A stretch of DNA of 43,155 nucleotides from an uncultured Flavobacteriales bacterium (lineage in GTDB: Bacteria; Bacteroidota; Bacteroidia; Flavobacteriales; Flavobacteriaceae): the NCBI GenBank assembly GCA_913058295.1, contig CAJXRD010000028.1, forward strand, positions 1 to 43,155, written 5' to 3'. Of this stretch, positions 961 through 19,582 are shown in pieces. A program made the position numbers and the translations under genes. The notes under the pieces are model-generated. The model saw only the letters and a list, made by a program, of their open reading frames with translations, was not told where the DNA came from and ran no database searches. Within the stretch, counting starts at the first letter, position 1. The number at the start of each line of letters is the position of its first letter.

Positions 961-981
961 TCACTGAGCTTGTCGAAGTGA
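961..981. repeat. Palindromic element, TCGACAAG-CTC core (copy 1)
   Basis: Arms TCACT / AGTGA enclose the core GAGCTTGTCGA, which is the reverse complement of TCGACAAGCTC. It lies between the convergent lipoprotein and ahcY genes. It belongs to the same family as the copies near 13.1, 13.7 and 19.4 kb. Confidence 0.8.
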
Positions 982-999
982 GCAAATTCTGAATGATAA

Positions 1000-2316
1000 C
1001 TAGTATCTATAATGCTCAGGCTTATAAGGACCATCTACTGTTACGCCAATATAACTTGCTTGGTCTTCACGTAATTCAGTTAGTTCCACACCTATTTTTG
1101 CTAAATGTAATTTTGCTACTTTTTCATCTAAAGATTTAGGTAACATATACACTTCATTTTCATAAGCATCTTTGTTTGTCCAAAGCTCTATCTGTGCTAA
1201 TGTTTGGTTGGTAAATGAGTTGCTCATTACAAAGCTTGGATGACCAGTTGCACAACCTAAGTTTACCAAACGTCCTTCAGCAAGAATGATAATGTCTTTG
1301 CCATTAATAGTATATTTATCTACTTGTGGTTTAATAGTATCTTTAGTGTTTCCATGGTTTTCATTTAACCATGCCATATCAATTTCATTATCAAAGTGCC
1401 CAATATTACAAACAATAATCTTGTCCTTCATTGCTTCAAAATGTCGTCCTTGAATAATATCTTTATTTCCAGTTGTAGTAATTACGATATCTGCATTACC
1501 AATAACTGTTTCTAATTTCTTTACTTCAAAACCGTCCATTGCAGCTTGTAAAGCACAGATAGGATCAATTTCAGTAACCGTAACGATACTTCCTGCACCA
1601 CTAAAAGAAGCGGCAGTACCTTTACCAACATCACCATAACCACAAACTACCACACGTTTACCAGCTAACATTACATCTGTAGCACGACGAATTGCATCTA
1701 CAGCACTTTCGCGGCATCCGTATTTATTATCGAATTTAGATTTAGTAACCGAATCGTTTACATTAATAGCAGGCATCGGCAATGTTCCATTTTTTACACG
1801 TTCGTATAATCTATGAACACCAGTTGTAGTTTCTTCACTTAATCCATTAATTCCATCTGCTAATTCAGGAAAACGATCTAAAACCATATTGGTTAAATCT
1901 CCACCATCATCAAGAATCATATTAAGTGGTTTTCTGTCTTCACCAAAGAATAAGGTTTGTTCGATACACCAATCAAATTCTTCTTCGGTCATATCTTTCC
2001 AAGCATAAACAGAAGTTCCTGCAGCAGCAATTGCAGCAGCAGCTTGATCTTGGGTTGAAAAAATATTACAAGAACTCCAAGTTACTTCTGCTCCAAGTGC
2101 TTGTAAAGTTTCAATTAAAACTGCAGTTTGGATAGTCATATGCAAACAACCAGCAATACGAGCACCTTTTAAAGGTTGTTCGTTTTTATACTCATCACGT
2201 AAGGACATTAGCCCTGGCATTTCTGCTTCGGCAAGTTTTATTTCTTTTCGTCCCCAATCAGATAGGGAAATATCTTTTACTTTAAAGGCTGTGTAAGCTT
2301 TCGTTTTAGTTGACAT
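1000..2316 (-). CDS. ahcY: Adenosylhomocysteinase
   Basis: This cytosolic enzyme hydrolyses S-adenosylhomocysteine to adenosine and homocysteine, closing the methyl cycle after SAM-dependent methylation. The 438-residue length is normal for the bacterial family. Visible signatures are [17 protein letters not shown] near residues 55-71, the substrate region with [11 protein letters not shown] (187-197) and Cys201, the NAD-binding loop GYGDVGKG (226-233) and the family-typical C-terminal tail KPEHYRY. The gene stands alone, divergent from the phosphopantetheinyl transferase operon. Nothing in it looks damaged. Confidence 0.97.
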
Positions 2317-2322
2317 AATTAT

Positions 2323-2330
2323 TATCTTTG
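2323..2330 (+). promoter_or_regulatory. Candidate -7 promoter element of the 2426-6862 operon
   Basis: TATCTTTG matches the Bacteroidota -7 consensus TAnnTTTG, 96 bases before the first start codon. No clear -33 TTTG is seen at the usual spacing. A hairpin (2336-2353) would lie at the very 5' end of such a transcript. Confidence 0.35.
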
Positions 2331-2335
2331 TTTCG

Positions 2336-2353
2336 TTCCTGCAAAGGCAGGAA
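2336..2353. repeat. Short perfect inverted repeat TTCCTGC / GCAGGAA
   Basis: Two 7-base arms are separated by AAAG in the gap between ahcY and the phosphopantetheinyl transferase gene. There is no T-run, so it is not an obvious terminator. It could be a dispersed palindrome or a 5' UTR hairpin. Confidence 0.6.
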
Positions 2354-2425
2354 TATTATTATTAATACTGAATTTACCTTCGGTTTTTTCGAATTGCAAA
2401 AGTAAGTAATATACTTTAATATTTT

Positions 2426-3073
2426 ATGCCTCTTTACAAAACTATAACAGTAAATTCTACAACTAAAGTGCTCATTTGGAAGATTGAAGAATCTTTTGAA
2501 ACGCTATCTGAAGATCTTGTGCTTACAGAAAGGAGTAAGAGTAGAGTTGTTGGAATGAGAAGCGAATTACATCGAAGAGGATTTATTAGTATTCGACATT
2601 TATTAGCTTCAGAAGGATATACAGATCGCGATTTGTTTTATGATGAAAATGGGAAGCCGCATTTAAAAGACGGGAAACATATTTCGATAACACATTCTTT
2701 TAATTTTTCAGCAATCATTATTAGTGATATTGAAGTAGGAATAGATGTAGAGAAAAAACGTGAAAAAATATTAAGAATAGCCCATAAGTTCACCAATTTT
2801 GAGGATTATCAAAATTTAATTCATAAAGATGTAATTGTTAGAAAGCTTACTATTGTTTGGTGTGCAAAGGAATCGCTTTATAAAAGTTTTAATAGGGTAG
2901 GCTTGACATTTCTAAACCATATTAATGTAGAAGATTTTAGTTTGTACCAAAACGAGACTACTGCAAATGTGGATTTTGAAGATAAAATAGAAGGATATCA
3001 TATATCGTTTTTAGAGTTTGAAGGGTTTACTTGCGCCTATGCTTTGCTTAATGACAGAAAGAAGAATGGGTAA
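2426..3073 (+). CDS. 4'-phosphopantetheinyl transferase, Sfp type
   Basis: The enzyme moves the phosphopantetheine arm of CoA onto carrier proteins (ACP, PCP or similar). The 215-residue length fits the Sfp group rather than the short AcpS group. Motifs are ISITHS at 86-91, the Mg-binding GIDVE at 105-109 (Asp107) and WCAKESLYK at 145-153 (Glu149 and Lys153 positions). It is the first gene of a tight six-gene run and its 3' end overlaps the GGGP synthase start by 8 bases. Whether it serves fatty acid ACP or a secondary-metabolite carrier cannot be told from this window, which holds no carrier protein. Confidence 0.9.
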   Translation: MPLYKTITVNSTTKVLIWKIEESFETLSEDLVLTERSKSRVVGMRSELHRRGFISIRHLLASEGYTDRDLFYDENGKPHLKDGKHISITHSFNFSAIIISDIEVGIDVEKKREKILRIAHKFTNFEDYQNLIHKDVIVRKLTIVWCAKESLYKSFNRVGLTFLNHINVEDFSLYQNETTANVDFEDKIEGYHISFLEFEGFTCAYALLNDRKKNG

Positions 3074-3767
3074 AAATAAATTCATTTCATTTTTAAATAC
3101 TTCAATTTCTAAAAAGGAAAAGCAATTAGCGATCTTAATCGATCCAGATGTTTTTGATAATTCTGAAGCAGCATATTTTTTAAATAAATTACCAGCACAA
3201 ACCACTCATTTATTTGTAGGTGGTAGTACTGTTGAAAAGGATAAGACAGAAGCTACTGTAATTGCATTAAAAAAGTATTGTTCCTTACCTGTTTTTCTAT
3301 TTCCTGGAGATGAATCACAAATCACGCAAAGTGCAGATGGGATTCTATTTTTATCTCTTATTTCTGGAAGAAATCCTGAATATTTAATTGAGCAACAAGT
3401 AAAATCTGTTTCTAAACTTAGAGATTCAAGTTTAGAAATAATGCCAACAGGGTATCTATTAATTGAAGGAGGAAATAAATCTGCTGTAGAAAGAGTAAGT
3501 GAAACGAAACCTATATCTCAGGATGATATTCAGACCATAGTGGATACTGCTTTAGCGGGAGAATATTTAGGAATGAAATTAATATATTTAGAAGCGGGAT
3601 CTGGTGCTAAAAATCCAGTGAATACAAATATTATAAGTGCTGTAAAGGAAGCGATTAATATTCCGTTATTTGTTGGAGGAGGAATTAAAAACGAAATGCA
3701 AAAAAAAGAAGCCTATGCTGCTGGAGCAGATTTGGTAGTGATGGGAACTTTTTTTGAAAACAAATAA
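3066..3767 (+). CDS. Geranylgeranylglyceryl phosphate synthase family protein
   Basis: This TIM-barrel prenyltransferase joins a polyprenyl diphosphate to sn-glycerol-1-phosphate, the chemistry that makes archaeal ether lipids. Bacteroidota carry a family branch that keeps this activity. Visible motifs include AILIDPD near the N-terminus, FVGGSTVEKDKT, GYLLIEGG, YLEAGSGAKNPV and the phosphate-binding LFVGGGIKN. ATG 3066 gives 233 residues, the normal size. An upstream in-frame GTG at 3018 would start inside the preceding gene and adds a non-conserved stretch. The gene overlaps the upstream transferase and is followed by pnuC after 2 bases. Confidence 0.88.
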   Translation: MGKNKFISFLNTSISKKEKQLAILIDPDVFDNSEAAYFLNKLPAQTTHLFVGGSTVEKDKTEATVIALKKYCSLPVFLFPGDESQITQSADGILFLSLISGRNPEYLIEQQVKSVSKLRDSSLEIMPTGYLLIEGGNKSAVERVSETKPISQDDIQTIVDTALAGEYLGMKLIYLEAGSGAKNPVNTNIISAVKEAINIPLFVGGGIKNEMQKKEAYAAGADLVVMGTFFENK

Positions 3768-3769
3768 CT

Positions 3770-4399
3770 ATGGAGCCTATTTTTGATTTTTTCCTTGAAC
3801 CTTATAAAACAGCTACAACGGCTAATATTAATTTAGAAGTTTTAGCGGCTGTTTTCGGTATCGCTAGCGTATGGTTTGCCAAGAAAGAAAGTATTTGGGT
3901 ATTCCCAACAGGAATTATTAGTACGGCGATTTATGTGTATATCTGCTTCAATTTTACCTTGTATGGCGATTTAATAATCAATATATACTATACTTTAATG
4001 AGTGTTTATGGCTGGTATATGTGGTCGAAAATGGTAAAAGGTCATCATTTAGAGATTACTGTATTAAATAAAAAAGACAGTTTAAAAGCCTTAGGAATAT
4101 TTGTAAGTACAGCTGTTTTTGTAATTTTAGTGTATTTGTATTTTGATCGATTTGATAGAATGACAGATTATTTTGATACGTTCACAACAGGAGTGTTTTT
4201 TGCAGCAATGTGGTTAATGGCAAATAAAAAAGTGGAACATTGGCTGCTTTGGATTGCAGGAAATATCATTTCAATACCCTTATATTTTATCAAAGGACTA
4301 GGATTTACAGGAATACAATTTATTATCTTTTTAATATTAGCAATTTTAGGATATCTAGAATGGAAAAAAATCTTAAACAAGCAAAATCAAACTGCTTAA
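3770..4399 (+). CDS. PnuC-family vitamin transporter (nicotinamide riboside or thiamine)
   Basis: This is a 209-residue inner-membrane protein with about seven hydrophobic segments. PnuC-family transporters are energy-independent facilitators whose substrate is trapped by phosphorylation inside the cell. The C-terminal signature WLMANKKVEHWLLWIAGN (148-165) includes a WxxW pair (Trp158, Trp161), and NIYYTLMSVYGWYMW (71-85) matches the family core. The next gene is a NadR-like kinase whose start lies 40 bases inside this gene, which suggests translational coupling. That pairing argues for nicotinamide riboside (PnuC). The TPP riboswitch and receptor 2.5 kb downstream argue for thiamine (PnuT). 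I cannot decide between them. Confidence 0.85.
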   Translation: MEPIFDFFLEPYKTATTANINLEVLAAVFGIASVWFAKKESIWVFPTGIISTAIYVYICFNFTLYGDLIINIYYTLMSVYGWYMWSKMVKGHHLEITVLNKKDSLKALGIFVSTAVFVILVYLYFDRFDRMTDYFDTFTTGVFFAAMWLMANKKVEHWLLWIAGNIISIPLYFIKGLGFTGIQFIIFLILAILGYLEWKKILNKQNQTA

Positions 4400-4929
4400 A
4401 AGTAACCTTATTTGGTCCTGAATCTACAGGAAAAACAACCTTAGCAAAACAGTTAGCTAGGTATTATAATTCGATTTGGGTTCCAGAATATGCAAGGGCA
4501 TATTTACAAAGAAAATGGAACGATGAACGAAAAACCTGTGAGCAATCTGATCTTTTACCCATAGCCACAGGACAGATGAAACTTGAAAATGAATCGGCAC
4601 AAAAAACAGATACCGTATTAATTTGTGATACAGATTTATTGGAAACCAAGGTGTATTCTGAGGAATATTATGAAGGAACTTGCGATCCCATATTAGAAAA
4701 ATATGCTTTAGAGAATACTTACGATTTGTATTTTTTAACTTATATTGATTCACCTTGGGAAGCAGATGATTTAAGAGATAAGCCCGACGAAAGAAAACAA
4801 ATGTTTACTGCATTTGAAGACACATTAATAAAATATAATAGACCCTATGTTTTATTAAAAGGAAGTAAAGCTGAACGATTAGAAGAAGCAGTTAAACATA
4901 TAGATTTATTATTAAAAGCGAAACATTGA
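4360..4929 (+). CDS. NadR-like P-loop kinase (ribosylnicotinamide kinase type)
   Basis: The product has 189 residues from ATG 4360. Walker A is GPESTGKTT at 19-27. VPEYAR at 41-46, ICDTD at 88-92 and SPWEADDLRDKPDERKQMF near 131-149 match the kinase domain of NadR, which phosphorylates nicotinamide riboside. The NMN adenylyltransferase domain and DNA-binding domain of full NadR are absent. A longer reading from 4240 would run antiparallel to no signal and lies wholly within pnuC, so it is rejected. The gene overlaps pnuC by 40 bases and DUF4301 by 4. It is the likely trapping kinase for whatever the transporter imports. Confidence 0.85.
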   Translation: MEKNLKQAKSNCLKVTLFGPESTGKTTLAKQLARYYNSIWVPEYARAYLQRKWNDERKTCEQSDLLPIATGQMKLENESAQKTDTVLICDTDLLETKVYSEEYYEGTCDPILEKYALENTYDLYFLTYIDSPWEADDLRDKPDERKQMFTAFEDTLIKYNRPYVLLKGSKAERLEEAVKHIDLLLKAKH

Positions 4930-6458
4930 ATTTAACTAAGAAAGATATTCAGCAATTAAAAGACCATGGGCTTACTATAGAAAAGGTATATAGACAACTA
5001 GAGTCTTTTTCTAATGGAATTCCCTTTGTAGATATAGTGACAGCAGCCTCTGTTGGCAATGGTATTGAGGTAATTGTGCCAGAGAATCAGCAAAAGTTGA
5101 TTGATTTTTATGAAGATAGAAAAGATAAAAAGGATATTGTAAAATTCATTCCTGCTTCTGGAGCTGCCACAAGAATGTTTAAGTTTCTTTTCGAGTTTTT
5201 AGAAAGTTATGATCCAGAAAAAGAAACGTTGAACGCTTTTTTAAAGAATGGAGATTATAAAGATCTTTCCGCTTTTGTAAATTCCATAAAAGACTTTGCT
5301 TTTTTAAGTGCTGTTAGAAAAAAAATAAGAAATAAATACCCAGATTTTAAACATGGCACCAAAGGATTGCGAGCTCATCTGTTCGTGAAGACAATGTTGG
5401 AAGAAAGTGGACTTAATTATTCTAACATGCCAAAAGGATTGATTCCATTTCATAAGTATAATAAATATGCGACTACTGCCTTTGAAGAGCATTTGTATGA
5501 AACCGCTTTTTATGCTTCGGTGAATGATAATGTTTATTTGCATTTTACTTTTTCAGAAAAACATGTGCCATTTTTTAAGGAGGAATTTGAATCTGTGAAA
5601 AACAGGGTTTCCAAAAAAACTAAAACAGAATTTCATATTTCTTATTCATTTCAGAAAAAAGGAACAGATACTATTGCAGTTAAAACAAACAATACTTTGT
5701 TTAGGGATGTAGATAATAATTTGGTGTTTCGTCCTTCTGGTCATGGGGCATTGCTAGAGAATCTAAATGAAGTAGATGCAGATATTATATTTGTAAAAAA
5801 CATAGACAATGTAGCTGCAGAAGAATATGTAGAAGAGATTGCATATTATAAAAAGGTATTGGCTGGGAAATTATTATGGATTCAAGAAAAAGCTTTTTTA
5901 TACCTAAAAGAAGTGTTAAAAGAGGGGGTTTCTCAGGATAAAGTTAACGAGATAAAATCTTTTCTTTGGAACGAATTAAACATAAAAGAATCTCCTAGTG
6001 ATCCAAAATTAATAGGAGAAATTTTAGATAGGCCTATTCGTGTATGTGGTGTTGTGAAAAATACAGGAGCTCCAGGCGGTGGTCCTTTTTGGGTTAAAAA
6101 TAAAAACGAAGAGATCTCTTTGCAAATTGTAGAAATGACTCAAATAGATTCTAATGACTCTCGCCTAGATGCAATGATTAGTGAAGCTACTCATTTTAAT
6201 CCCGTAGACATTGTTTGTGGAGTAAGGAATTATAAAGGGGAAAAGTATGATTTAGCAAAATACTTAGATCCCAATGCTGGAATTATTTCAGAGAAATCTC
6301 AAGATGGAAAATCGTTAAAGGCATTAGAACTTCCAGGATTATGGAATGGCGCTATGGCTGGTTGGAATACCGCTTTTGTTGAAGTGCCATTAGAAACTTT
6401 TAATCCTGTAAAAACAGTAATCGATTTATTAAATAAGGAACATCGCCCTAATGCATAA
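4926..6458 (+). CDS. DUF4301 family protein, nucleotidyltransferase-like
   Basis: This is a 510-residue cytosolic protein of a Bacteroidota family without a known role. The sequence shows IPASGAATRMFK at 75-86, which resembles the GxGTRM loop of sugar-1-phosphate nucleotidyltransferases. RPSGHGALLENL (269-280) followed by FVKNIDN (289-295) resembles the GHG...NxDN segment of UDP-sugar pyrophosphorylases. GAPGGGPFWV (381-390) and LWNGAMAGWNTAF (472-484) are further glycine- and tryptophan-rich blocks. I infer a GT-A-type nucleotidyltransferase fold with an unknown substrate. The TTG start overlaps the kinase stop (TTGA), a sign of coupled translation and shared function. Confidence 0.82.
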   Translation: MNLTKKDIQQLKDHGLTIEKVYRQLESFSNGIPFVDIVTAASVGNGIEVIVPENQQKLIDFYEDRKDKKDIVKFIPASGAATRMFKFLFEFLESYDPEKETLNAFLKNGDYKDLSAFVNSIKDFAFLSAVRKKIRNKYPDFKHGTKGLRAHLFVKTMLEESGLNYSNMPKGLIPFHKYNKYATTAFEEHLYETAFYASVNDNVYLHFTFSEKHVPFFKEEFESVKNRVSKKTKTEFHISYSFQKKGTDTIAVKTNNTLFRDVDNNLVFRPSGHGALLENLNEVDADIIFVKNIDNVAAEEYVEEIAYYKKVLAGKLLWIQEKAFLYLKEVLKEGVSQDKVNEIKSFLWNELNIKESPSDPKLIGEILDRPIRVCGVVKNTGAPGGGPFWVKNKNEEISLQIVEMTQIDSNDSRLDAMISEATHFNPVDIVCGVRNYKGEKYDLAKYLDPNAGIISEKSQDGKSLKALELPGLWNGAMAGWNTAFVEVPLETFNPVKTVIDLLNKEHRPNA

Positions 6459-6862
6459 TGAATGTAAATGTTATACTCACCGAGTTAAGATTTAAGGCAG
6501 TACGGAGCAGTGGTCCTGGAGGACAACATGTAAATAAAACTGCAACAAAAATTGAACTTAGTTTAGGGATTGCGGATTCTCTTGCTTTTTCTGAAGAGGA
6601 GAGAGAACTCTTATTAAAAAAATTAAAAACGAAACTTTCTTCGGAAGGGGTTCTCCAGCTTTCTTGTGGAGAAACTAGAAGTCAGCATCGAAATAAAGCT
6701 ATTGTCATTGATCGTCTAATAGAATTATTGACTAAAAGCTTAAAAAAGCAGAAGCCTCGTAAAAAAACAAAACCCTCTAGACGTGCAATAGAAAAAAGGT
6801 TAAACACTAAAAAGAATAAAGCCTTAAAAAAAACAAATAGGAAACCTCCAAAAATTGATTAA
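6458..6862 (+). CDS. arfB: Alternative ribosome-rescue factor ArfB (YaeJ-like)
   Basis: This peptidyl-tRNA hydrolase frees ribosomes stalled on mRNAs lacking a stop codon. The GGQ catalytic motif is in SSGPGGQHVNKTATK (17-31). The C-terminal third is a lysine/arginine-rich tail (KKQKPRKKTKPSRRAIEKR and onward) that in this family inserts into the empty mRNA channel. The length of 134 residues is usual, and too short for RF1 or RF2. Its start overlaps the DUF4301 stop (TAATG). It ends the operon. Confidence 0.93.
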   Translation: MNVNVILTELRFKAVRSSGPGGQHVNKTATKIELSLGIADSLAFSEEERELLLKKLKTKLSSEGVLQLSCGETRSQHRNKAIVIDRLIELLTKSLKKQKPRKKTKPSRRAIEKRLNTKKNKALKKTNRKPPKID

Positions 6863-6867
6863 TTAAT

Positions 6868-6875
6868 TATCTTTG
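6868..6875 (+). promoter_or_regulatory. -7 promoter element driving the TPP riboswitch transcript
   Basis: TATCTTTG fits TAnnTTTG. The predicted start of transcription, a few bases downstream, falls directly at the 5' edge of the riboswitch (about 6884). That placement supports it, although no well-spaced -33 element is visible. Confidence 0.5.
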
Positions 6876-6883
6876 TCGCATCT

Positions 6884-6985: not shown

Positions 6986-7051
6986 TAAAGAGGAATATTT
7001 CCTTGAACAAACTATTTTAAATTAATAATAAATAATTACCCCTTTTATTTA

Positions 7052-10489: not shown

Positions 10490-10491
10490 AA

Positions 10492-12111: not shown

Positions 12112-12117
12112 CAATCC

Positions 12118-13008
12118 ATGATTTCAATTACACCACAAGAAATAAGTACCGGTAAATTACACGGTTATCTTTTAGGAGCGATATCTCCACGTCCTATTGC
12201 CTTTGCAAGTACTGTAGATGCTAATGGGAATGTAAATTTATCCCCTTTTAGTTTTTTTAATGTATTTAGTGCCAATCCACCAATACTCGTTTTTTCTCCT
12301 GCAAGAAGAGTGAGAGATAATACGACAAAACATACTTTAGAAAATGTTTTGGCTACCAAAGAAGTGGTGATAAATATGGTGAGTTACGATATGGTGCAAC
12401 AAATGTCATTGTCTTCTACGGAATATCCAGAAGGAGTTAATGAATTTGAAAAAGCAGGATTTACAGAAGTTGCTTCAGATTTGGTAAAGCCACCAAGAGT
12501 TGCAGAGTCACCAGTGCAATTTGAATGTAAAGTAAATGAAGTTATTGCTTTAGGTACTGAAGGTGGTGCTGGAAACTTGATCATTGCTGAGGTTGTAAAA
12601 CTTCATATAAAGGAGAGTATTTTAGATGAAGAAGGAAAAATAGATCCAATTAAAATGGATACGGTTGCACGTATGGGAGGTAATTGGTACAATAGGGCAA
12701 AAGAAGGAGTTTTTGAAGTAGAAAAACCAATAAGAACAATGGGAATAGGAGTAGATGCATTACCTGAATTTATTAGAACTAGTGATATTTTAACAGGAAA
12801 TGATTTAGGTATTTTAGGGAATGTAGAAAAAATACCTTCGGAAGAAGAAGTAATGATGTTTGTAAAAATGGGAATTGAAAAATGTCCACATATCAATATA
12901 GCAAACAAAGAAAATACGCAAAAGCAAGCACAAGATATGTTGCAAAAAGGTGACGTTTATGACGCCTTTAGATTGTTATTAGCGATAGATTTAATGAAGA
13001 TTAAATAG
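12118..13008 (+). CDS. Flavin reductase-like domain protein
   Basis: The 296-residue protein belongs to the FMN-binding split-barrel flavin reductase-like family, which binds FMN and uses NAD(P)H in its characterised members. SPRPIAFASTVDANGNVNLSPFSFFN near residues 22-47 is the family's flavin-contact region, followed by TKHTLENVL and VINMVSYDM. The C-terminal 60 residues form a helical extension seen in many Bacteroidota members. I chose ATG 12118 because the upstream in-frame region runs through the promoter and into the divergent kinase gene. The substrate is unknown. Confidence 0.85.
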   Translation: MISITPQEISTGKLHGYLLGAISPRPIAFASTVDANGNVNLSPFSFFNVFSANPPILVFSPARRVRDNTTKHTLENVLATKEVVINMVSYDMVQQMSLSSTEYPEGVNEFEKAGFTEVASDLVKPPRVAESPVQFECKVNEVIALGTEGGAGNLIIAEVVKLHIKESILDEEGKIDPIKMDTVARMGGNWYNRAKEGVFEVEKPIRTMGIGVDALPEFIRTSDILTGNDLGILGNVEKIPSEEEVMMFVKMGIEKCPHINIANKENTQKQAQDMLQKGDVYDAFRLLLAIDLMKIK

Positions 13009-13017
13009 GGTTTTGTT

Positions 13018-13057
13018 CTCTGAGTGTTCCGACAAAGTCGGAAAGTTTCGAAGAGAG
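13018..13057. repeat. Palindromic element with inserted hairpin (copy 2)
   Basis: Outer arms are CTCT / AGAG. On the minus strand the core reads TCGAAAC, then an inner hairpin TTCCGAC-TTT-GTCGGAA, then CACTC. It is a close inverted relative of the copy at 13628-13672 on the other side of the DUF3127 gene. Confidence 0.75.
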
Positions 13058-13075
13058 TAAAAATAGTACTAGAAT

Positions 13076-13112
13076 CCCTTCGATACGATTTCAAAAATGA
13101 AATCACTCAGGG
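13076..13112. repeat. Palindromic element with inserted hairpin (copy 3)
   Basis: Arms CCCT / AGGG enclose TCGATACG, an inner hairpin ATTTCA-AAAA-TGAAAT, and CACTC. It shares TTCGATACGATTTCA and TGAAATCACTCA with the reverse complement of 13681-13725. Confidence 0.8.
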
Positions 13113-13134
13113 AACTTCAATAAAAAATAAGAAT

Positions 13135-13157
13135 GGGCTTCGACACGCTCAGCCACC
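13135..13157. repeat. Palindromic element, short form (copy 4)
   Basis: Arms GGCT / AGCC enclose the 11-base core TCGACACGCTC. The right flank CACC is shared with the copies at 13191 and 19553. Confidence 0.8.
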
Positions 13158-13190
13158 TAAGAATAAAAATAAGTATAAGTTATTAAAACA

Positions 13191-13212
13191 GGCTTCGACA
13201 AGCTCAGCCACC
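13191..13212. repeat. Palindromic element, short form (copy 5)
   Basis: Arms GGCT / AGCC enclose the core TCGACAAGCTC, 33 bases before the DUF3127 start codon. It would be part of that gene's 5' UTR if transcription begins upstream. Confidence 0.8.
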
Positions 13213-13244
13213 ATAGATTAAGAATATTAATAGAAAAGAACACG

Positions 13245-13622
13245 ATGGAAGTACAAGGGAAAATTAAAGTAATAGGAGAAACGCAAACTTTCGGATCTAA
13301 TGGATTCAGAAAAAGAGAAGTAGTAGTAACTACGGAAGAGCAATACCCACAAGCTATTATGATAGAGTTTGTGCAGGACAAAACCGATTTATTAAACGCT
13401 TATGCGGTAGGGCAAAATGTAAAAATCAGCATCAACCTAAGAGGTAGAGAATGGGCTAATCCACAGGGAGAGATTAAATATTTTAACTCGATTCAAGGAT
13501 GGCGTATAGAGAACTTAGCAGAAGCTGCAGGTTCTACAGAGATGCCTCCAATGCCACCAGCAGATGCCTTTGAGCCAGCAAACGATCTAGATTCGAAAGA
13601 ACACGACGATTTGCCATTTTAG
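13245..13622 (+). CDS. DUF3127 family protein with SSB-like acidic tail
   Basis: This 125-residue soluble protein has an N-terminal beta-rich, OB-fold-like domain (MEVQGKIKVIGETQTF, REVVVTTEEQYPQ, ISINLRGREW...FNSIQGWRIE). A Pro/Ala-rich linker (PPMPPADAFEPAN) leads to the acidic tail HDDLPF. That tail is the same type as the C-terminal peptide by which single-stranded DNA-binding protein recruits repair and replication enzymes. DUF3127 itself has no assigned role. A DNA-binding or DNA-repair link is my inference from the tail and fold. The gene is flanked by palindromic repeats on both sides. Confidence 0.85.
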   Translation: MEVQGKIKVIGETQTFGSNGFRKREVVVTTEEQYPQAIMIEFVQDKTDLLNAYAVGQNVKISINLRGREWANPQGEIKYFNSIQGWRIENLAEAAGSTEMPPMPPADAFEPANDLDSKEHDDLPF

Positions 13623-13627
13623 TATAG

Positions 13628-13672
13628 GGGTCATTTCGATACGTTCCGACTCTGTCGAAACACTCAATGACC
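13628..13672. repeat. Palindromic element with inserted hairpin (copy 6)
   Basis: Perfect 7-base arms GGTCATT / AATGACC enclose TCGATACG, an imperfect inner hairpin TTCCGAC-TCT-GTCGAAA, and CACTC. It starts 5 bases after the DUF3127 stop. Confidence 0.85.
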
Positions 13673-13680
13673 AAAAACTC

Positions 13681-13725
13681 GTTCCTTGAGTGATTTCATT
13701 TTTCTGAAATCGTATCGAAAGGAAC
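13681..13725. repeat. Palindromic element with inserted hairpin (copy 7)
   Basis: Perfect 7-base arms GTTCCTT / AAGGAAC enclose, in minus orientation, TCGATACG, the inner hairpin ATTTCA-GAAAAA-TGAAAT, and CACTC. It is the inverted counterpart of 13076-13112. Confidence 0.85.
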
Positions 13726-13740
13726 AAGTGACATTAATTT

Positions 13741-13780
13741 AAAAGCCTAAAGATTACTTAATAGTAATCTTTAGGCTTTT
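13741..13780 (+). terminator. Rho-independent terminator
   Basis: AAAAGCCTAAAGATTACT (13741-13758) pairs perfectly with the segment ending AGTAATCTTTAGGCTTTT around TAAT. The long stem and flanking A- and T-runs make it strong and possibly bidirectional. It separates DUF3127 from the AtoE-like gene. Confidence 0.92.
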
Positions 13781-13794
13781 TGTATTTTTAAAGC

Positions 13795-15171
13795 ATGAAT
13801 ATTACAAAAACCGTAGAATCTCTTTTTAAGAGATTTATGCCTTCTCCATTTGCAATAGCAATTATACTTACGATACTTACTATGGTATTGGCCTTGTTAT
13901 TTACAGAAGCGCCTAAAGACCAATCTCCTGTTTTTGCCATACTTTCTTATTGGGAAAAAGGGATTTGGAATAATTCTCTTTTAGTATTTGCCTACCAAAT
14001 GATGTTGATTTTAGTTTTAGGTCATATTTTGGTATTGAGCAAGCCCATGAATTTTTTAATTTCAAAACTCACCAATCTGGTGAGCAATACTTCTAATGCG
14101 GTATTGTTGGTTAGTGCTTGTACCATGATTGTTTCGTTTTTTAATTGGGGTTTGGGACTTATTTTTGGAGCCATTATGGCTCGTAAAGTAGCAGAAGCAT
14201 CTCAATTGCGAGGTTTTAGTATCAACTATCCATTAGTTGGCGCATCGGGTTATGTAGGTTTAATGATTTGGCATGGAGGGATTAGCGGATCAGCTCCTTT
14301 AAAAGTTGCCGAAAGTGGACATTTGGCAAGTTTAATGACAGGAGTTGGAGATAGTAATTTGATAAGTCAATTACCCGATTTTATCCCGTTTAGTGAAACG
14401 GTTTTTAGTGGCTTTAATATGATTTTATTTGGAGTTTTATTGGTGGTAATCCCATTATTCTTATATAAGATTGGAAAGAAAGCTCCTGCCACCGTAGTTA
14501 ATTTACCCATATATAAAGGGGTTAATTCTGAAGAAGCCAAAATGGAAGGTGCTGAAAAAATAGACCATTCAAAAATTCTCGGAATTGGTTTTGGAACATT
14601 GATTCTTATCGCCTTTATATATCAATATCAGGAAGCTTTATTAGCATTAGTGATAACTCCTAATATGCTTAACTTTTTTATGTTAGGATTGGCATTAATC
14701 TTACACGGAAACTTTAGAAATTTTTTAAATGCAGTAGAAGAAGCAATAAAAGGTGCTTCCGGAATATTAATTCAGTTTCCCCTCTATTTCGGGATTATGG
14801 GAATTATGAGAGATAGTGGAATGGTAATACAGATTTCTGACTTTTTTGTTTCTATAGCAACACCAATGACCCTACCCATTTTTACTTTTTTTAGTGGAGG
14901 TTTGGTTAATATATTTGTGCCAAGTGGAGGAGGACAATGGGCAATACAAGGTCCTATTGTTGTAGAATCTGCATTAAAACTAGGGGTGCCATTACCCAAA
15001 ACAATAATGGCATTGGCTTATGGCGATCAGATTACCAATATGCTGCAACCATTTTGGGCATTGCCTTTATTGGGTATTACAAAATTAAAAGCCAGAGAAA
15101 TTCTGCCCTATACCATCATGTTAATGGCAATTGGAACCGTAGTTTACCTTTTAGGCTTGATGTTTTTATAG
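13795..15171 (+). CDS. Short-chain fatty acid transporter, AtoE family
   Basis: This 458-residue inner-membrane protein has roughly 11 hydrophobic segments. AtoE-family permeases carry acetoacetate, butyrate and similar short-chain acids. The family signature FVPSGGGQWAIQGPI lies near residues 368-382, and MPSPFAIAIILTILT near the N-terminus is typical. The AtoA/AtoD CoA-transferase and AtoB genes that accompany atoE in enterobacteria are not here, so the substrate stays open. It follows a strong terminator and leads directly into aat (6-base gap), so the two may share a transcript. Confidence 0.9.
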   Translation: MNITKTVESLFKRFMPSPFAIAIILTILTMVLALLFTEAPKDQSPVFAILSYWEKGIWNNSLLVFAYQMMLILVLGHILVLSKPMNFLISKLTNLVSNTSNAVLLVSACTMIVSFFNWGLGLIFGAIMARKVAEASQLRGFSINYPLVGASGYVGLMIWHGGISGSAPLKVAESGHLASLMTGVGDSNLISQLPDFIPFSETVFSGFNMILFGVLLVVIPLFLYKIGKKAPATVVNLPIYKGVNSEEAKMEGAEKIDHSKILGIGFGTLILIAFIYQYQEALLALVITPNMLNFFMLGLALILHGNFRNFLNAVEEAIKGASGILIQFPLYFGIMGIMRDSGMVIQISDFFVSIATPMTLPIFTFFSGGLVNIFVPSGGGQWAIQGPIVVESALKLGVPLPKTIMALAYGDQITNMLQPFWALPLLGITKLKAREILPYTIMLMAIGTVVYLLGLMFL

Positions 15172-15177
15172 AATAAT

Positions 15178-15819
15178 ATGAATCTTTTAACAACAAAACT
15201 TTGGTTTCCGAAACCTGAAGAAACAGATTTTGACGGACTACTTGCTGTAGGTGGAGATTTGAGTGTAGAGCGTTTGTTACTTGCATATCATTCTGGTATT
15301 TTTCCTTGGTATGATGAAGGGCAACCAATTATGTGGTGGAGCCCAGATCCTAGGATGGTATTGTTTCTTTACAATTTTAAAGTCTCTAAAAGCCTTCAAA
15401 AAACGATAGATAGAAATAAATTTAGAGTAACCTTTAATTCTTGTTTTTCAGAAGTACTAAAAAATTGTTCTACTATAAAACGAAATGGACAAACAGGAAC
15501 TTGGATTACTGAAGAAATGCAAAAGGCTTATACAGAATTACATCTATTAGGACATGCATTATCGGTTGAGGTTTGGGAAGGGGAAGAATTAGTTGGCGGA
15601 TTATACGGTGTAGATTTGCCTGAGAAGAAATTGTTTTGTGGGGAAAGTATGTTTTCAAAAGTTAGCGATGCTTCAAAAGTTGGCTTTTGCTTTTTAATAG
15701 AAAAACTGAAAATAGATAACTACAAATTAATAGATTGTCAGATGTATACGCCCCATTTGGAAAGCCTTGGAGCCGATGAAATACCCAGAATTGCCTTTTT
15801 GAAATACTTAGATTCCTAA
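15178..15819 (+). CDS. aat: Leucyl/phenylalanyl-tRNA-protein transferase
   Basis: This cytosolic enzyme adds Leu or Phe from aminoacyl-tRNA to proteins with N-terminal Arg or Lys, marking them for ClpAP/ClpS degradation by the N-end rule. The 213-residue length fits the family. Motifs are GLLAVGGDLS, LLLAYHSGIFPWYDEGQPIM, WWSPDPRMVL and GLYGVDLPEKKLFCGESMFS. It follows the AtoE-like gene by 6 bases. Confidence 0.95.
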   Translation: MNLLTTKLWFPKPEETDFDGLLAVGGDLSVERLLLAYHSGIFPWYDEGQPIMWWSPDPRMVLFLYNFKVSKSLQKTIDRNKFRVTFNSCFSEVLKNCSTIKRNGQTGTWITEEMQKAYTELHLLGHALSVEVWEGEELVGGLYGVDLPEKKLFCGESMFSKVSDASKVGFCFLIEKLKIDNYKLIDCQMYTPHLESLGADEIPRIAFLKYLDS

Positions 15820-15883
15820 GGGAATTAACACTATAAGATAGGAAAATGATTATCTTCGTCATTATTTTTTAAATCTATCCATA

Positions 15884-17638
15884 ATGAAGTTTTTACCCCA
15901 AAAATTCGCCTTTTTATTCTTATTCTTATTAGTATTTAGTACTACCCTTGTATTTTCTCAAGAAGAGGAAGTGCTTCCTAAAGGACTTACAGAATCTGAA
16001 AAAGGAATTCTATCTCAATTTCAATTTAAGAATAATGTAATGTCAGACCCTCCTTCTGGACCTGTACGAGCAGCTGCAGAATGGGAAGAAGTAGAATATC
16101 TAGTGGTGCGTTGGACTTCAAGTTTTCAAAATATTCTAAGACAAATCGTTGAGGTTGGTGTAAGTGAGTGTAAGGTGATTATCACTACCCAAGACGAATC
16201 TTCAGTAGCTAATTATTTAACCAATGCTGGGGTAGATTTAACGAATGTTATTTTCTTGGACGAAAATAGCAATAGTATTTGGATACGAGATTATGGCGGA
16301 AACACCATCTATTCAGATGATGTAGGGGAAATAGCTTTAGCAGATTGGATCTACAACCGTCCTCGTCCTTTTGATAATGTGATGCCTACTGCTCATGCAA
16401 ACCTTTTGGGAATTCCAATTTATGAAACCAATACTGGTATTAATGATTTGGTAAATACTGGAGGTAATTTTATGTCGGATGGTTTAGGAAATGCATTTGC
16501 TTCTAATTTGATTTTAGATGAAAACTCTGCTGGGAATCCTTATGGTGTTTCTGTTAAAACAGAAGCTCAAATAGATGGAATCATGAACGAGTATATGGGA
16601 ATTGAGAACTATATAAAAATGGAAAATCTTCCTTACGACGCCATTCATCATATTGATATGCATATGAAACTTTTAGATGAAGAAACGCTTTTGGTGAGTA
16701 GATATCCAGAAGGAGTTGCAGATGGCCCACAAATTGAAGATAATATTGAATATGTATTGAGTAATTTTCAATCTCCTTTCGGAACTCCTTATGAGGTGGA
16801 ATGGATAGATGCTCCACCAAGTTCTGGAGGTAATTATCCTGATACAGGAGGTTCTTACCGTACTTTTAGTAATTCAGTTTTTATTAATAAATCTGTAATT
16901 GTGCCTATTTATAGAGCTGAAGTTGACGGTCCAGCATTAGAAAAATACCAAGAATTATTACCTGGATATAATATTGTAGGGGTGGATGTTGATAATCCAG
17001 ATGAAAACCTAATTTCTCTTTTTGGAGCAATACATTGTATTACCCATACTATTGGAGTTGAAGATCCATTATGGATTGTTCACCAACCTATTGATCAAGC
17101 TAATCCTAGTTCAACGGTTTCTGTGGATGCTATGATAAAGCATGATTCCGGGATTAGTACTGCAACAGTATTTTGGCGAGAGGAAGGAACTTCAGATTTT
17201 AGCCAAACGGCTATGTCTTTGGTTAGTGGCGACGATTGGTCTGCAGATCTTAATATGCCGAATACCACAATTAATATAGAATATTATATAGAAGCCGAAG
17301 CTAATTCTGGTAAAACCTTAGCCCGCCCAATTGTAGCTCCAGAAGGATTTTGGACCATACTTGTTGACATTCTTTCGAATGAAGAATGGGCAAATAATAA
17401 TATTTCTGCTCCTTTTCCTAATCCGAGTCAAAATAAAGTTTCATTTGATTTAAATAATATTGGAGGACCGATACAGGTTGTTATATACAATATATTAGGC
17501 CAAAAACTGTTTGAAACTAATATCGATAAAGGTAATGGAATTATAAGTTTAGATTTAAATCAAGATTGGAAAGGCTCTTTATTTGTCTCTTTTAATGGTG
17601 ATTTTGGAACTGTTACCAAGAAAGTTATTAAAATTTAA
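15884..17638 (+). CDS. Secreted peptidylarginine-deiminase-like enzyme with T9SS sorting domain
   Basis: The 584-residue product has a Sec signal peptide (cleavage near VFSQ, 26) and a guanidino-modifying (agmatine deiminase/PPAD-type) domain at about 60-400. An Ig-like domain follows at about 400-495, then a type-A T9SS C-terminal domain (from about 503, FPNPSQNKVSF, IYNILGQKL). Putative active-site residues are Asp136 (IRDYGG), Arg159 and Arg161 (YNRPRP), His256 and Asp258 (HHIDMH), Asn330 (TFSNS) and Cys385 (GAIHCITH). They match in order and spacing the catalytic and substrate residues I recall for Porphyromonas gingivalis PPAD. It would convert arginine, perhaps C-terminal arginine of peptides, to citrulline outside the cell. 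Confidence 0.88.
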   Translation: MKFLPQKFAFLFLFLLVFSTTLVFSQEEEVLPKGLTESEKGILSQFQFKNNVMSDPPSGPVRAAAEWEEVEYLVVRWTSSFQNILRQIVEVGVSECKVIITTQDESSVANYLTNAGVDLTNVIFLDENSNSIWIRDYGGNTIYSDDVGEIALADWIYNRPRPFDNVMPTAHANLLGIPIYETNTGINDLVNTGGNFMSDGLGNAFASNLILDENSAGNPYGVSVKTEAQIDGIMNEYMGIENYIKMENLPYDAIHHIDMHMKLLDEETLLVSRYPEGVADGPQIEDNIEYVLSNFQSPFGTPYEVEWIDAPPSSGGNYPDTGGSYRTFSNSVFINKSVIVPIYRAEVDGPALEKYQELLPGYNIVGVDVDNPDENLISLFGAIHCITHTIGVEDPLWIVHQPIDQANPSSTVSVDAMIKHDSGISTATVFWREEGTSDFSQTAMSLVSGDDWSADLNMPNTTINIEYYIEAEANSGKTLARPIVAPEGFWTILVDILSNEEWANNNISAPFPNPSQNKVSFDLNNIGGPIQVVIYNILGQKLFETNIDKGNGIISLDLNQDWKGSLFVSFNGDFGTVTKKVIKI

Positions 17639-17654
17639 TCAGCATATTTGCTGA
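17639..17654 (+). terminator. Hairpin after the deiminase gene, weak terminator
   Basis: TCAGCA-TATT-TGCTGA follows the stop codon directly. No proper T-run follows, so termination would be partial and the small gene at 17674 may be reached by read-through. Confidence 0.35.
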
Positions 17655-17673
17655 CTAATTTATATTCCTATTA

Positions 17674-18018
17674 ATGCAAACGAATAAAATATATTTAATT
17701 TTATTAGGGATCTGTTTATCTTGTACTACTTACTCTCAGACGCAGGGAGAATCAGGTGTAAGTAAGGATATTGATATAGTAAAGGTATATACCCAAGTAG
17801 TCAACGAAGGCTATGGTACCGTTTTAATATATAAAGAATTAGCAAACGCTTATTATTTTAGAAGTAATTATACAGAATCTAAAAAATGGTTTGAAAAATT
17901 ATTTTCAGAAGTAGAACCTCAAGAAAAAATACTTCTATATCGATATCAGCAATCTTTAAAAGCATTAAAGCTATATACAGAAGATAATGTTTATCTAACG
18001 GATTTCGTTATTGATTAA
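17674..18018 (+). CDS. Small exported TPR-like protein
   Basis: The 114-residue protein has an N-terminal signal (LGICLSCTTYSQ; Cys17 could be a lipid site, or cleavage may follow YSQ). One to two tetratricopeptide-like units follow (YKELANAYYFRSNYTESKKWFEKLFS...LLYRYQQSLKAL). The same pattern begins the much larger OmpA/WD40-type envelope proteins of flavobacteria, so this may be a stand-alone or shortened relative. No further domain follows before the stop. It overlaps the convergent tag gene by 4 bases. Function unknown. Confidence 0.75.
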   Translation: MQTNKIYLILLGICLSCTTYSQTQGESGVSKDIDIVKVYTQVVNEGYGTVLIYKELANAYYFRSNYTESKKWFEKLFSEVEPQEKILLYRYQQSLKALKLYTEDNVYLTDFVID

Positions 18019-18584
18019 TCCTTTACTTCCTTATACCTAAAGCAACTTTCTAAATGGTCATTTACCATGCCTGTAGCTTGCATATGCGCATAAACAACAG
18101 TAGACCCTACAAATTTAAATCCACGCTTTTTTAAGTCTTTGCTTATCGTATCACTTAAAGGAGTATTGGCTGGCATTTCGGACATGGTTTTAAATGTATT
18201 TTGTATAGGTTTACCATCTACAAAGTCCCAAATATATTTTTTAAAACTTCCAAATTCCTTTTGAATTTCAATAAAGGCTAGGGCATTTGTAACTGCCGAT
18301 CTTACTTTTAATTTATTACGGATAATTCCTGCATCTTGAAGAAGTTCAGCTATTTTTTCTTCGGAATAATTTGCGATTTTTTTATAATCAAAACCATCAA
18401 AGGCTTTTCTAAAGTTTTCACGTTTTCTTAAAATAGTAATCCAACTTAAACCCGCCTGAAAAGTTTCTAAAAGTAAAAACTCAAAAAGTTTTGTTTCATC
18501 GTAAACGGGAACACCCCATTCTTCATCATGATAACTAAGGTATAAAGGGTCTTTTCCAGGCCAAGCACATCGTTGTTTTTCCAT
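18015..18584 (-). CDS. tag: DNA-3-methyladenine glycosylase I
   Basis: The enzyme removes 3-methyladenine from alkylated DNA as the first step of base excision repair. The 189-residue length matches the family. The zinc ligands are visible as Cys6 (RCAWPG), His19 (YHDEEWG), His177 and Cys181 (NDHLESC), each shifted by two from the E. coli numbering I recall. EEWGVPVYD, FQAGLSWITILRKRENFR and KKRGFKFVGSTVVYAHMQA are conserved substrate-pocket blocks. It is convergent with the small TPR-like gene and divergent from the thioredoxin-like gene. Confidence 0.96.
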   Translation of the reverse strand: MEKQRCAWPGKDPLYLSYHDEEWGVPVYDETKLFEFLLLETFQAGLSWITILRKRENFRKAFDGFDYKKIANYSEEKIAELLQDAGIIRNKLKVRSAVTNALAFIEIQKEFGSFKKYIWDFVDGKPIQNTFKTMSEMPANTPLSDTISKDLKKRGFKFVGSTVVYAHMQATGMVNDHLESCFRYKEVKD

Positions 18585-18644
18585 CGTAAAATATTAGAAA
18601 ATCTAAAGTAGTAAGTTTTTTTTAATTAGTACGTCTTAGTACCT

Positions 18645-19268
18645 ATGGAAAAAAACATCAATACCAATACAGAAATAAACGCCTTAGTAAATAATAGTAT
18701 CCACAAGGCAATTAGTTATGACGAGTTTAGAACTCAAGTAGCAGAGCATGTAGAAAACGGAACAAGTTCTGGGCCATATCAATCGGAAGCTCTTTCTCAA
18801 TATACTTTATTAAATAATTCGAGAATGAAGCGTTTAGATAAGACTACGAAGATTTCAGAAGAAATTTCAGAAAAATTTCAAAACTATAAAAACAATGTCA
18901 CTTGGTTAGTACTTACTGAAAGTTGGTGTGGAGATGCTGCTCATGCTATGCCAGTTATGAATAAATTAACTGGACTATCCAACAATATAGATTTTAAGGT
19001 TTTGCATCGGGATGAAAACGAAGAATTGATGAATGAATTTTTAACCAATGGGACTAAATCGATTCCAAAATTGATTGCTTTTGATAATGAAACGAAAGAA
19101 GTTATTAGCGATTGGGGACCTTCCCCTTCAAAAGTGATGGCTATGACAAAAGATTTTAAAGAAAATAATAAAGTTCTAACGCCAGAATTTAAAAAGGATA
19201 TTCAGGTTTGGTATAATAAGGATAAGGGAAATAGTATTGCAATCGATTTAATGCAGATGATAGCTTAA
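18645..19268 (+). CDS. Thioredoxin-fold protein with single active-site cysteine
   Basis: This 207-residue cytosolic protein has no signal peptide. A helical N-terminal part of about 80 residues precedes a thioredoxin fold. The active-site region is LVLTESWCGDAAHAMP with Cys95 in a WCGD motif, so the second cysteine of the usual CxxC is replaced by Ala or His. A cis-proline loop, TKSIPKLIAFD, is kept. The family is common in Bacteroidota under the name thioredoxin family protein. A single cysteine argues against ordinary dithiol reductase action and for thiol transfer or peroxidase-like chemistry, which is inference. It is followed by the repeat array. Confidence 0.85.
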   Translation: MEKNINTNTEINALVNNSIHKAISYDEFRTQVAEHVENGTSSGPYQSEALSQYTLLNNSRMKRLDKTTKISEEISEKFQNYKNNVTWLVLTESWCGDAAHAMPVMNKLTGLSNNIDFKVLHRDENEELMNEFLTNGTKSIPKLIAFDNETKEVISDWGPSPSKVMAMTKDFKENNKVLTPEFKKDIQVWYNKDKGNSIAIDLMQMIA

Positions 19269-19285
19269 TTAATTAATTATTAATA

Positions 19286-19311
19286 AGACTCTTCGACAAG
19301 CTCAGAGTCCG
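19286..19311. repeat. Palindromic element (copy 8, array unit F1)
   Basis: Arms GACTCT / AGAGTC (6 bases, perfect) enclose the core TCGACAAGCTC. It is the first of six alternating units between two convergent genes. Confidence 0.85.
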
Positions 19312-19329
19312 TTTGAATTTAGTTGTTTT

Positions 19330-19354
19330 CCGGTGGCTGAGCCTGTCGAAGCCA
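19330..19354. repeat. Palindromic element (copy 9, array unit R1)
   Basis: Opposite orientation to F1. Arms TGGCT / AGCCA enclose the core GAGCCTGTCGA, the reverse complement of TCGACAGGCTC, with CCGG to the left. Confidence 0.85.
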
Positions 19355-19403
19355 TTTTAAAATGGAAATAAGTTAGGGTAGCTTGAATTTTATTCTATGC
19401 TAT

Positions 19404-19428
19404 GTCTCTTCGACAGGCTCAGAGTCCG
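19404..19428. repeat. Palindromic element (copy 10, array unit F2)
   Basis: Arms CTCT / AGAG enclose the core TCGACAGGCTC, followed by TCCG as in F1. Confidence 0.85.
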
Positions 19429-19456
19429 TCTTAACTATTCTTTAAATTTGTTAATT

Positions 19457-19478
19457 GGTGGCTGAGCTTGTCGAAGCC
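19457..19478. repeat. Palindromic element (copy 11, array unit R2)
   Basis: Arms TGGCT / AGCCA enclose the core GAGCTTGTCGA. Orientation as R1. Confidence 0.85.
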
Positions 19479-19499
19479 ATATTTATTTAATGCCTAAAA

Positions 19500-19524
19500 C
19501 TTTTCGGCAGGCTCAGAGCCCGAG
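19500..19524. repeat. Palindromic element, diverged (copy 12, array unit F3)
   Basis: Arms CTTT / AGAG (one G-T wobble) enclose TCGGCAGGCTC, the most diverged core of the array. Confidence 0.75.
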
Positions 19525-19552
19525 ACTATTAGCAGATTATAATTCTAATTCT

Positions 19553-19579
19553 CCGGTGGCTGAGCTTGTCGAAGCCACC
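19553..19579. repeat. Palindromic element (copy 13, array unit R3)
   Basis: Perfect 7-base arms GGTGGCT / AGCCACC enclose the core GAGCTTGTCGA. It ends 3 bases before the stop codon of the TonB-like gene. Confidence 0.85.
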
Positions 19580-19582
19580 TCA

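Follow-up and report, generated by a model that had tools for sequence, protein, structure and literature searches.

A REP-like family of short dispersed hairpins with freely varying stem pairs in Flavobacteriales and in bacteria of other phyla

Introduction

The transposase-less CGTC repetitive extragenic palindromic (REP) sequences, as the published text describes them (Di Nocera et al., 2013; PMC3733652), are the closest published kind to the element reported here, a family of short hairpins dispersed in a stretch of 43,155 bases (hereafter the window) of an uncultured Flavobacteriaceae bacterium (GenBank assembly GCA_913058295.1, contig CAJXRD010000028.1). According to that text, CGTC REPs have stems of 8-9 bp starting with A and T, loops of 4-5 bases, a terminal unpaired CGTC, TGTC or CCTC tag and a short unpaired tail, mostly CCA. 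Its authors describe a dedicated transposase as apparently missing and add that no tyrosine transposase gene in the CGTC-bearing species is flanked by CGTC REPs, and in the same text Di Nocera, De Gregorio and Rocco left open how transposase-less REPs arise and spread. Neisseria dRS3 and Rickettsia RPE-4 and RPE-6 are placed there among the CGTC REPs (PMC3733652).

The window is contig C28 of a 3.07-Mb assembly with a completeness of 97.6%. An earlier note, made from the sequence letters, had described about 13 intergenic copies of a palindromic element and had considered it REP-like. Our analysis supports a REP-like dispersed element in which the hairpin is kept and the sequence of its arms is not. 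On balance, we favour a REP-type non-autonomous mobile hairpin, which would fold as single-stranded DNA (ssDNA) of the strand reading GAG (the GAG strand) and would be moved in trans.

Hairpin Structure and Covariation

Both strands of the window were scanned for TCGA...CTC with perfectly complementary arms of at least 4 bp. Twelve copies were found, from 961-981 to 19555-19579, compared with 0.58 on average and never more than 3 in 50 dinucleotide-shuffled versions of the window; a thirteenth copy, at 19500-19520, is imperfect (TCGGCAGGCTC). All 13 are intergenic and fall into four stretches (907-1000, 13008-13245, 13622-13795, and 19268-19583). In the whole genome the pattern TCGAYANGCTC occurs 30 times, eight of them in the window, against 2 occurrences of the reversed pattern. 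An extra inner hairpin, also noticed before, is present in four of the 12 copies, which are referred to as the long form.

Read 5' to 3' on the GAG strand, a copy consists of tag - N4 N3 C T - GA - G - apex - C - GA - A G - N3' N4', the apex being CYTGT in the short form and T + hairpin + GTAT in the long form. The stem shared by the whole family comprises 4 bp (NNCT/AGN'N'), of which the two outer pairs (3-4) vary. Pair 1 is mostly T-A and pair 2 mostly C-G, in 24/30 and 20/30 copies of the own genome and in 176/190 and 164/190 copies of the genome_contigs loci, although the sets beyond the own genome were gathered by a pattern that fixes pairs 1-2 in at least one copy per locus. At pairs 3 and 4, all four Watson-Crick types are present in every set. 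Watson-Crick pairing at these two positions was found in 20/30 and 21/30 copies of the own genome (shuffle means 7.8 and 8.9), 43/52 and 45/52 in relatives, 169/190 and 156/190 in the genome_contigs loci and 124/153 and 103/153 in the viral-contig loci, counts that none of 2000 shuffles reached in any set. At pair 5 pairing is partial in the two larger sets, and from about pair 6 outward it is near chance with scattered exceptions, longer arms such as GGTGGCT/AGCCACC occurring only as single copies. The earlier proposal of copy-specific complementary arms therefore stands in that pairing is kept over sequence at pairs 3-4, but not over 4-8 bp, as the shared stem is 4 bp long.

The long form, searched as TGAGTG...GTATCGA, has 24 matches in the own genome, and six genomes of the same genus (G011, G008, G015, G009, G012, and G017) hold 40, 21, 17, 15, 14, and 12, respectively, with 0 to 2 reversed-pattern matches each; in other genera it is rare and close to the control level. 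Among 125 distinct long-form sequences, apex pairs 2-8 are Watson-Crick in 65-91%, a level reached at each pair by 0/2000 shuffles, and when the partner is slid by one base, only pair 3 still exceeds the shuffle level, apart from a slight remainder at pair 4. This covariation indicates that the long-form tip is a second helix, free to vary in sequence.

Common to both forms is T-GA-G facing C-GA-A, that is, a T-A pair, a GA/GA internal loop and a G-C pair; in a standard fold of the short form, 11 bases lie between the stems. In DNA, sheared G-A pairing is favoured at 5'-pyrimidine-GA-purine steps, and d(GCGNAGC) forms a mini-hairpin of great stability. The facing GA/GA loop may form tandem G-A pairs.

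Some further features of the hairpins were observed. A second recurrent centre, CGAC..GGAG or GAG..CGA, is present in many long-form apex helices (e.g., G011:C22:20303 and G012:C74:6722), as if the same build were stacked twice, and some long-form copies (L354 of G012 and some in G011) have another palindrome, TCCCGATAGTTATCGGGA, inserted at their tip. At L142:4740, L048, L084, and L129, single copies are enclosed in longer palindromes whose outer arms measure about 8-18 bp, the core at L048 being a related one, and look as if they had been inserted, or had grown, into larger hairpins.

Presence and Absence Between Close Relatives

Comparison of closely related species shows the element to be mobile. 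Within the own genus, copies are present upstream of the DUF3127 gene in 4 of 14 relatives (G008, G011, G012, and, decayed, G009), while the other ten have a short intergenic gap of about 10-25 bases, as estimated by eye. Downstream of the same gene, the first 200 bases inspected hold no copy in any of 15 relatives, and a terminator-like hairpin lies there in copy-free relatives (e.g., L345, L346, L351, L357, and L358).

Filled and empty sites were also found in Sphingobium Tom chromids that are 93-97% identical to each other. At site 1, a 114-bp doublet lies between etfB and etfA, genes that overlap in the three other strains. Site 2 (152 bp), which has terminal inverted repeats TTAGAGCAT...ATGCTCTAA around the doublet, is absent from three strains; site 3, also 152 bp and built like site 2, is missing from one strain, while another has it in an altered form of 195 bp; site 4 is absent in two strains. 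At all four sites the inverted doublet is inserted as a unit. In Plantibacter, two orthologous 3' stretches differ between species in the number of copies and half-copies, the first holding about one to seven by eye. Presence/absence differences between close relatives, for which the earlier note had proposed to look as empty sites, are found in the own genus, in Sphingobium and in Plantibacter.

Sphingobium doublets were also seen within a larger palindromic element with the ends TTAGAGCAT / GCTCTAA, which varies between strains (L361:22712-22863, L362:39961-40112, and L364:40179-40373). In strain TomTYG74 (site 3, L364:40179-40373), both copies of the doublet have extra sequence in or beside their tips when compared with TomMM7A.

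Distribution and Tags

A scan of species genomes for the core CTTCGACARGCTCAG gave at least 119 stretches, and titles were taken from the 80 listed. These 80 include Bacteroidetes, Chloroflexi, Actinobacteria, Alpha-, Beta-, Gamma- and Deltaproteobacteria, Myxococcales, and Cyanobacteria, as well as Armatimonadetes, Eremiobacterota, Neomarinimicrobiota, and candidate phyla; many of the genomes are metagenome-assembled genomes (MAGs) whose binning was taken as deposited, and some class names were assigned from genus names. In fifty core-bearing genomes from eight phyla, by title, the number of copies ranges from 4 to 517 and is highest in Plantibacter; the reversed pattern has 2 matches in all fifty together. 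Within the own class the core was found in 108 of 295 sampled genomes, with 0 control matches, and the core form with A in 18 of 59 relatives (own genome included), the count within the genus ranging from 0 to 16. The statement of the earlier note that similar strings are frequent in flavobacteria is supported, and the family extends beyond them. Cultured genera bearing the core are Plantibacter, Microbacterium, Sphingomonas, and Pedobacter; seven Plantibacter genomes hold 112 to 382 exact copies each of a 22-base form with its tag, while Sphingomonas HJP_bin13 has 2 copies in the 150 kb sampled.

The tag of the GAG strand varies by group. It is CCGGT in Plantibacter (right-hand ACCGG, 77-96% per position), CCGTTCG in many proteobacterial copies and TGTCA in many, though not all, of the Bacteroidota copies. 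Arms that are identical among copies of one species, which the earlier note had named as evidence of simple recent copying and against its own proposal, are found in part: CCCT/AGGG accounts for 55 and CACT/AGTG for 18 of 95 Plantibacter copies, so that the copies there descend from few arm types.

The first 2.22 Mb (54%) of Plantibacter chromosome G109:C1 holds 172 of 243 copies by hand count among the matches listed. On the same basis, TCGA-plus copies in this part number 98/126 and GAG-plus copies 74/117 (P 0.016), and sampled GC skew gave no clear replication origin for G109. Core matches were seen as well in many IMG/VR contigs (L193-L272, a minimum among the matches listed). In the GenBank phage collection the matches were partial, 2 of 54 records covering 80% of the query at 86% identity, so the core-bearing IMG/VR contigs may be host DNA or prophage edges.

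Search for a Mover

The earlier note had suggested movement by a Y1 transposase of the REP-associated tyrosine transposase (RAYT) type. Ordinary RAYT-moved REPs, whose Y1 transposase was lost later or works from a different genome or replicon, would account for the REP-like build of the family (a tag on one strand, an imperfect hairpin, inverted doublets, and intergenic 3' location), and some Y1_Tnp gene is present in 28 of the 50 copy-bearing genomes. Gene loss has also been suspected for REPs in genomes without tnpA-REP, as stated in the text of a previous study (PMC6006769). However, we consider this explanation unlikely. No match to Y1 transposase (PF01797) was found in the own genome, in a search in which the controls, E. 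coli and four others, did match. Y1_Tnp is likewise missing from 22/50 copy-bearing genomes, among them genomes with 283 and 517 (Plantibacter) copies, and from 8 of 11 copy-bearing Sphingomonadales. Copies are not fewer where it is missing, the median lying between 38 and 56 without Y1 and at 38 with it. Its presence does not follow that of the copies among the 59 relatives (own genome included), where it occurs in 7/18 core-bearing and 13/41 core-free genomes. Furthermore, a clear doublet lies beside the Y1 gene at just one of 38 Y1 loci (L337, 144 bp downstream), and none of the tags seen is GTAG. RAYT was rejected as the present mover.

Breaks and Nesting at the Hairpin Tip

The tip is where the hairpin is weak: here copies break, are reiterated, or take in other copies. 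Plantibacter sequence amounting to 366 kb contained 99 left halves (GGTCMCTGAGC), 69 of which continue into the right half. Five of the other 30 resemble point-mutated full copies, and most of the remainder have another left half or a full copy within about 30 bases. When left-half matches were extended from the tag, 75 reached GAGC, of which 19 end there or one base further on, the base after GAGC matching half the time by chance, and 47 run to the end; 6 more end one base before the end of GAGC. Nested copies occupy the same spot of the tip at L035, L036, G109, G110, L117, and L127. In G008, a 28-bp perfect inverted repeat stands where the own genome has a quasi-palindromic copy, as would be expected if one arm had templated the other.

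A near-identical compound element was observed at L117:7138 (a rumen Bacteroidales MAG) and L127:3439 (Litorilinea, a Chloroflexi MAG), with an inner copy CCTTCGACARGCTCAGGACGGCG nested in its tip.

These breaks also bear on the possibility that there is no dedicated mover, in which case hairpins would stall replication and be cut at the tip, and template-switch repair would reiterate halves, make the arms complementary and capture copies. The tandem half-elements of Plantibacter with their break just after GAGC, the nesting at the tip, the perfect repeat of G008 and the fact that no enzyme was found are all in line with such a process, which nonetheless appears improbable as the whole explanation: it explains local growth, but not one 15-base core in eight or more phyla, and it leaves insertion at new sites unexplained. 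In addition, the orthologue of the copy at 13075-13113 retains CCCT/AGGG in G008, G011, and G012, which argues that the arms are not drifting fast by correction.

Folding Strand

Since a G.T mismatch on one strand is an A.C mismatch on the other, mismatch asymmetry tells which strand folds. Across 515 copies in five sets, pairs 1-4 of the GAG strand hold 87 G.T and 28 A.C mismatches, and when the genome_contigs and viral sets are set aside, the remaining three hold 27 and 7 (P 8e-4). At the free pairs (3-4) alone the numbers are 76 and 21, where column composition predicts 59% G.T (P 1e-4). The first apex pair, in 130 distinct sequences, is G.T in 58, G.C in 56, G.A in 15, and G.G in 1. This asymmetry points to selection or recognition acting on the GAG strand in single-stranded form.

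Regarding position, 34 of the 64 Flavobacteriales copies lie between tandem genes, 17 between convergent and five between divergent ones, with eight at an edge and none inside an open reading frame (ORF). GAG is the coding strand for 18 of the 34 tandem copies and for 27 of the 49 tandem cases in the genome_contigs loci. Because orientation to transcription is even, ssDNA is favoured over RNA as the form that would be folded and recognised, as for REPs and IS200/IS605 ends.

It is very unlikely that the element is a transcribed RNA hairpin functional at gene 3' ends (processing, stability or attenuation): the absence from ORFs, the location of 51/56 classifiable Flavobacteriales copies between tandem or convergent genes and the G.T(U) wobble kept on one strand would suit it, but GAG orientation is even, the copies are patchy between species with real terminators beside them, and none of 4227 Rfam families matched the window above gathering score. 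An Rfam RNA family was rejected on that search, and the termination hairpin suggested by the earlier note was also discarded, as the copies in the window have no T-run, separate terminators lie alongside and the orientation to transcription is even.

Proposed Mechanism and Significance

In the reading that we favour, a non-autonomous hairpin moved in trans, the recognised form would be the GAG strand as ssDNA, consisting of a 5' tag followed by NNCT-GA-G-[apex]-C-GA-AG-N'N', in which the outer stem pairs and the inner apex could take any sequence provided that pairing is kept. The travelling unit would usually be an inverted doublet, sometimes within a larger element resembling miniature inverted-repeat transposable elements (MITEs). 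A trans-acting enzyme, either not of the Y1 (RAYT) type or no longer in the genome, would insert the element beside gene 3' ends, and the tip would be the weak point at which copies are broken, reiterated and invaded.

Several observations weigh against this reading. No target-site duplication and no exact target rule were found at the compared sites, and about 20 bases of clustered changes at the etfB end (L359:15680-15705) adjoin the insertion at Sphingobium site 1, where the allele may therefore have arrived by recombination rather than by transposition. Folding energies as DNA are modest: of five copies compared with shuffles, three have z values of -2.7 to -3.3, a proteobacterial copy has -0.74, and a Plantibacter copy, at 0.45, is no better than shuffles. 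Pairs 1-2 have no G.T excess (11 against 7), the numbers at apex pairs 2-6 in 115 sequences are too small for a judgement (13 G.T and 5 A.C), and G.T tolerance alone cannot separate ssDNA from RNA. By crude ORF calling, 58 of 167 copies of the genome_contigs loci lie inside ORFs. Finally, no transposase appeared in the best 25 of 34 families from 38 ORFs between nearby Microbacterium copies, nor in the best 25 of 250 families from 127 ORFs adjoining copies (of 138 collected, those shorter than 90 or longer than 700 aa being left out); the commonest neighbour family reached 2/38 and 3/127, respectively. This last test is weak, because perhaps one copy per genome would adjoin the gene of the mover.

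A more far-reaching proposal, which we regard as possible and put forward tentatively, is that all copies form one family of ssDNA hairpins of about 22-25 bases, read by shape (tandem G-A pairs and a tag, with two free pairs) and spread across phyla by an enzyme class new to REPs, or simply by the cleavage and repair of hairpins in the host, with the tip as the cut site. If this is true, tip cutting explains the half-elements, the nested copies and the endlessly varied apex helices.

The 15-base core of the element is exact, its copies can number in the hundreds in one genome, its hosts include cultured genera, and both filled and empty sites are known. With a defined folding strand and a defined weak point, the search for the mover becomes a bench-sized task in which one oligonucleotide could serve as bait. 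The family also represents a natural case of strong covariation that does not necessarily involve RNA and could mislead RNA-structure screens.

Features of the Window

The copies and adjacent hairpins of the window are listed in Table 1. The genes around them are ordinary chromosomal ones according to Pfam, namely those for S-adenosylhomocysteinase, a flavin reductase-like protein, DUF3127, a short-chain fatty acid transporter, leucyl/phenylalanyl-tRNA transferase, and thioredoxin.

Table 1. Element copies and neighbouring hairpins in the window; the strand given is the GAG strand, taken as the probable folding strand.
Positions	Strand	Feature	Remarks
911..943	no strand	Intrinsic-terminator-like hairpin with T-run	Beside a copy, outside the element
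961..981	+	Short-form copy	Arms TCACT/AGTGA
13017..13056	+	Long-form copy	Arms TCTCT/AGAGA; inner apex hairpin
13075..13113	-	Long-form copy	Arms TCCCT/AGGGA; apex hairpin GATTTCA/TGAAATC; orthologue in G008
13136..13154	-	Short-form copy, TCGACACGCTC	Arms GGCT/AGCC
13191..13209	-	Short-form copy	Arms GGCT/AGCC
13629..13672	-	Long-form copy	Arms GGTCATT/AATGACC; apex hairpin
13681..13725	+	Long-form copy	Arms GTTCCTT/AAGGAAC; apex hairpin
13741..13781	no strand	Terminator-like hairpin after DUF3127 gene	Similar one in element-free relatives
19287..19309	-	Short-form copy	Arms GACTCT/AGAGTC; first half of inverted doublet 19287-19354
19334..19354	+	Short-form copy	Arms TGGCT/AGCCA; second half of doublet 19287-19354
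19406..19424	-	Short-form copy	Arms CTCT/AGAG; first half of second doublet 19404-19479
19459..19479	+	Short-form copy	Arms TGGCT/AGCCA; second half of doublet 19404-19479
19500..19520	-	Imperfect copy	Core TCGGCAGGCTC; first half of third, degenerate doublet
19555..19579	+	Short-form copy	Arms GGTGGCT/AGCCACC

Comparison With Known Systems

The exact core 14-mer was absent from the literature text searched, figures and supplements lying outside that search, so that a printed drawing is possible; papers containing core 12-13-mers do not concern this element, judged by title and the start of the abstract. The ends of IS200/IS605 elements and of their MITEs carry subterminal hairpins and follow an ssDNA logic, whereas the own genome of the present family has no TnpA. 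GTAG REPs, bacterial interspersed mosaic elements (BIMEs) and REP doublets (REPINs), which are moved by RAYT, share with it a strand-specific imperfect hairpin, a one-sided tag and an inverted doublet as the unit. In REPINs two inverted copies are inserted together, as is also the case at Sphingobium sites 1-4. The family differs from GTAG REPs in having no GTAG tag, no RAYT in many copy-rich genomes and one core across phyla. Caulobacter CIR repeats were rejected as relatives, being described in the text of the respective study as GANTC-bearing and about 110 bp long, with no shared anatomy (PMC2229807).

Compared with the published text on CGTC REPs, the two families have much in common. Both are small palindromes of several phyla, including Bacteroidetes, both lie mostly downstream of genes, between tandem or convergent ones and near 3' ends, and both form inverted doublets, show complementary stem changes and have no associated transposase (PMC3733652). 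In contrast to the CGTC tag, the 8-9 bp stem and the 4-5 base loop of that description, the family of the window has CCGGT, CCGTTCG, or TGTCA as tags depending on the group, a 4-bp stem NNCT/AGN'N' with two free pairs, and either a GAGCYTGTCGA centre (11 bases between the stems) or a tip helix. Given these differences in stem, loop and tag from the published text, we have not filed it as a member of the CGTC REPs (PMC3733652). Nevertheless, one bridging copy, L159 (TGTCATTCTGAGCTTGTCGAAGAAT), combines a TGTC tag and an AT-first stem (ATTCT) with the core of the present family, and common descent with the CGTC REPs, as far as their text describes them, is therefore likely.

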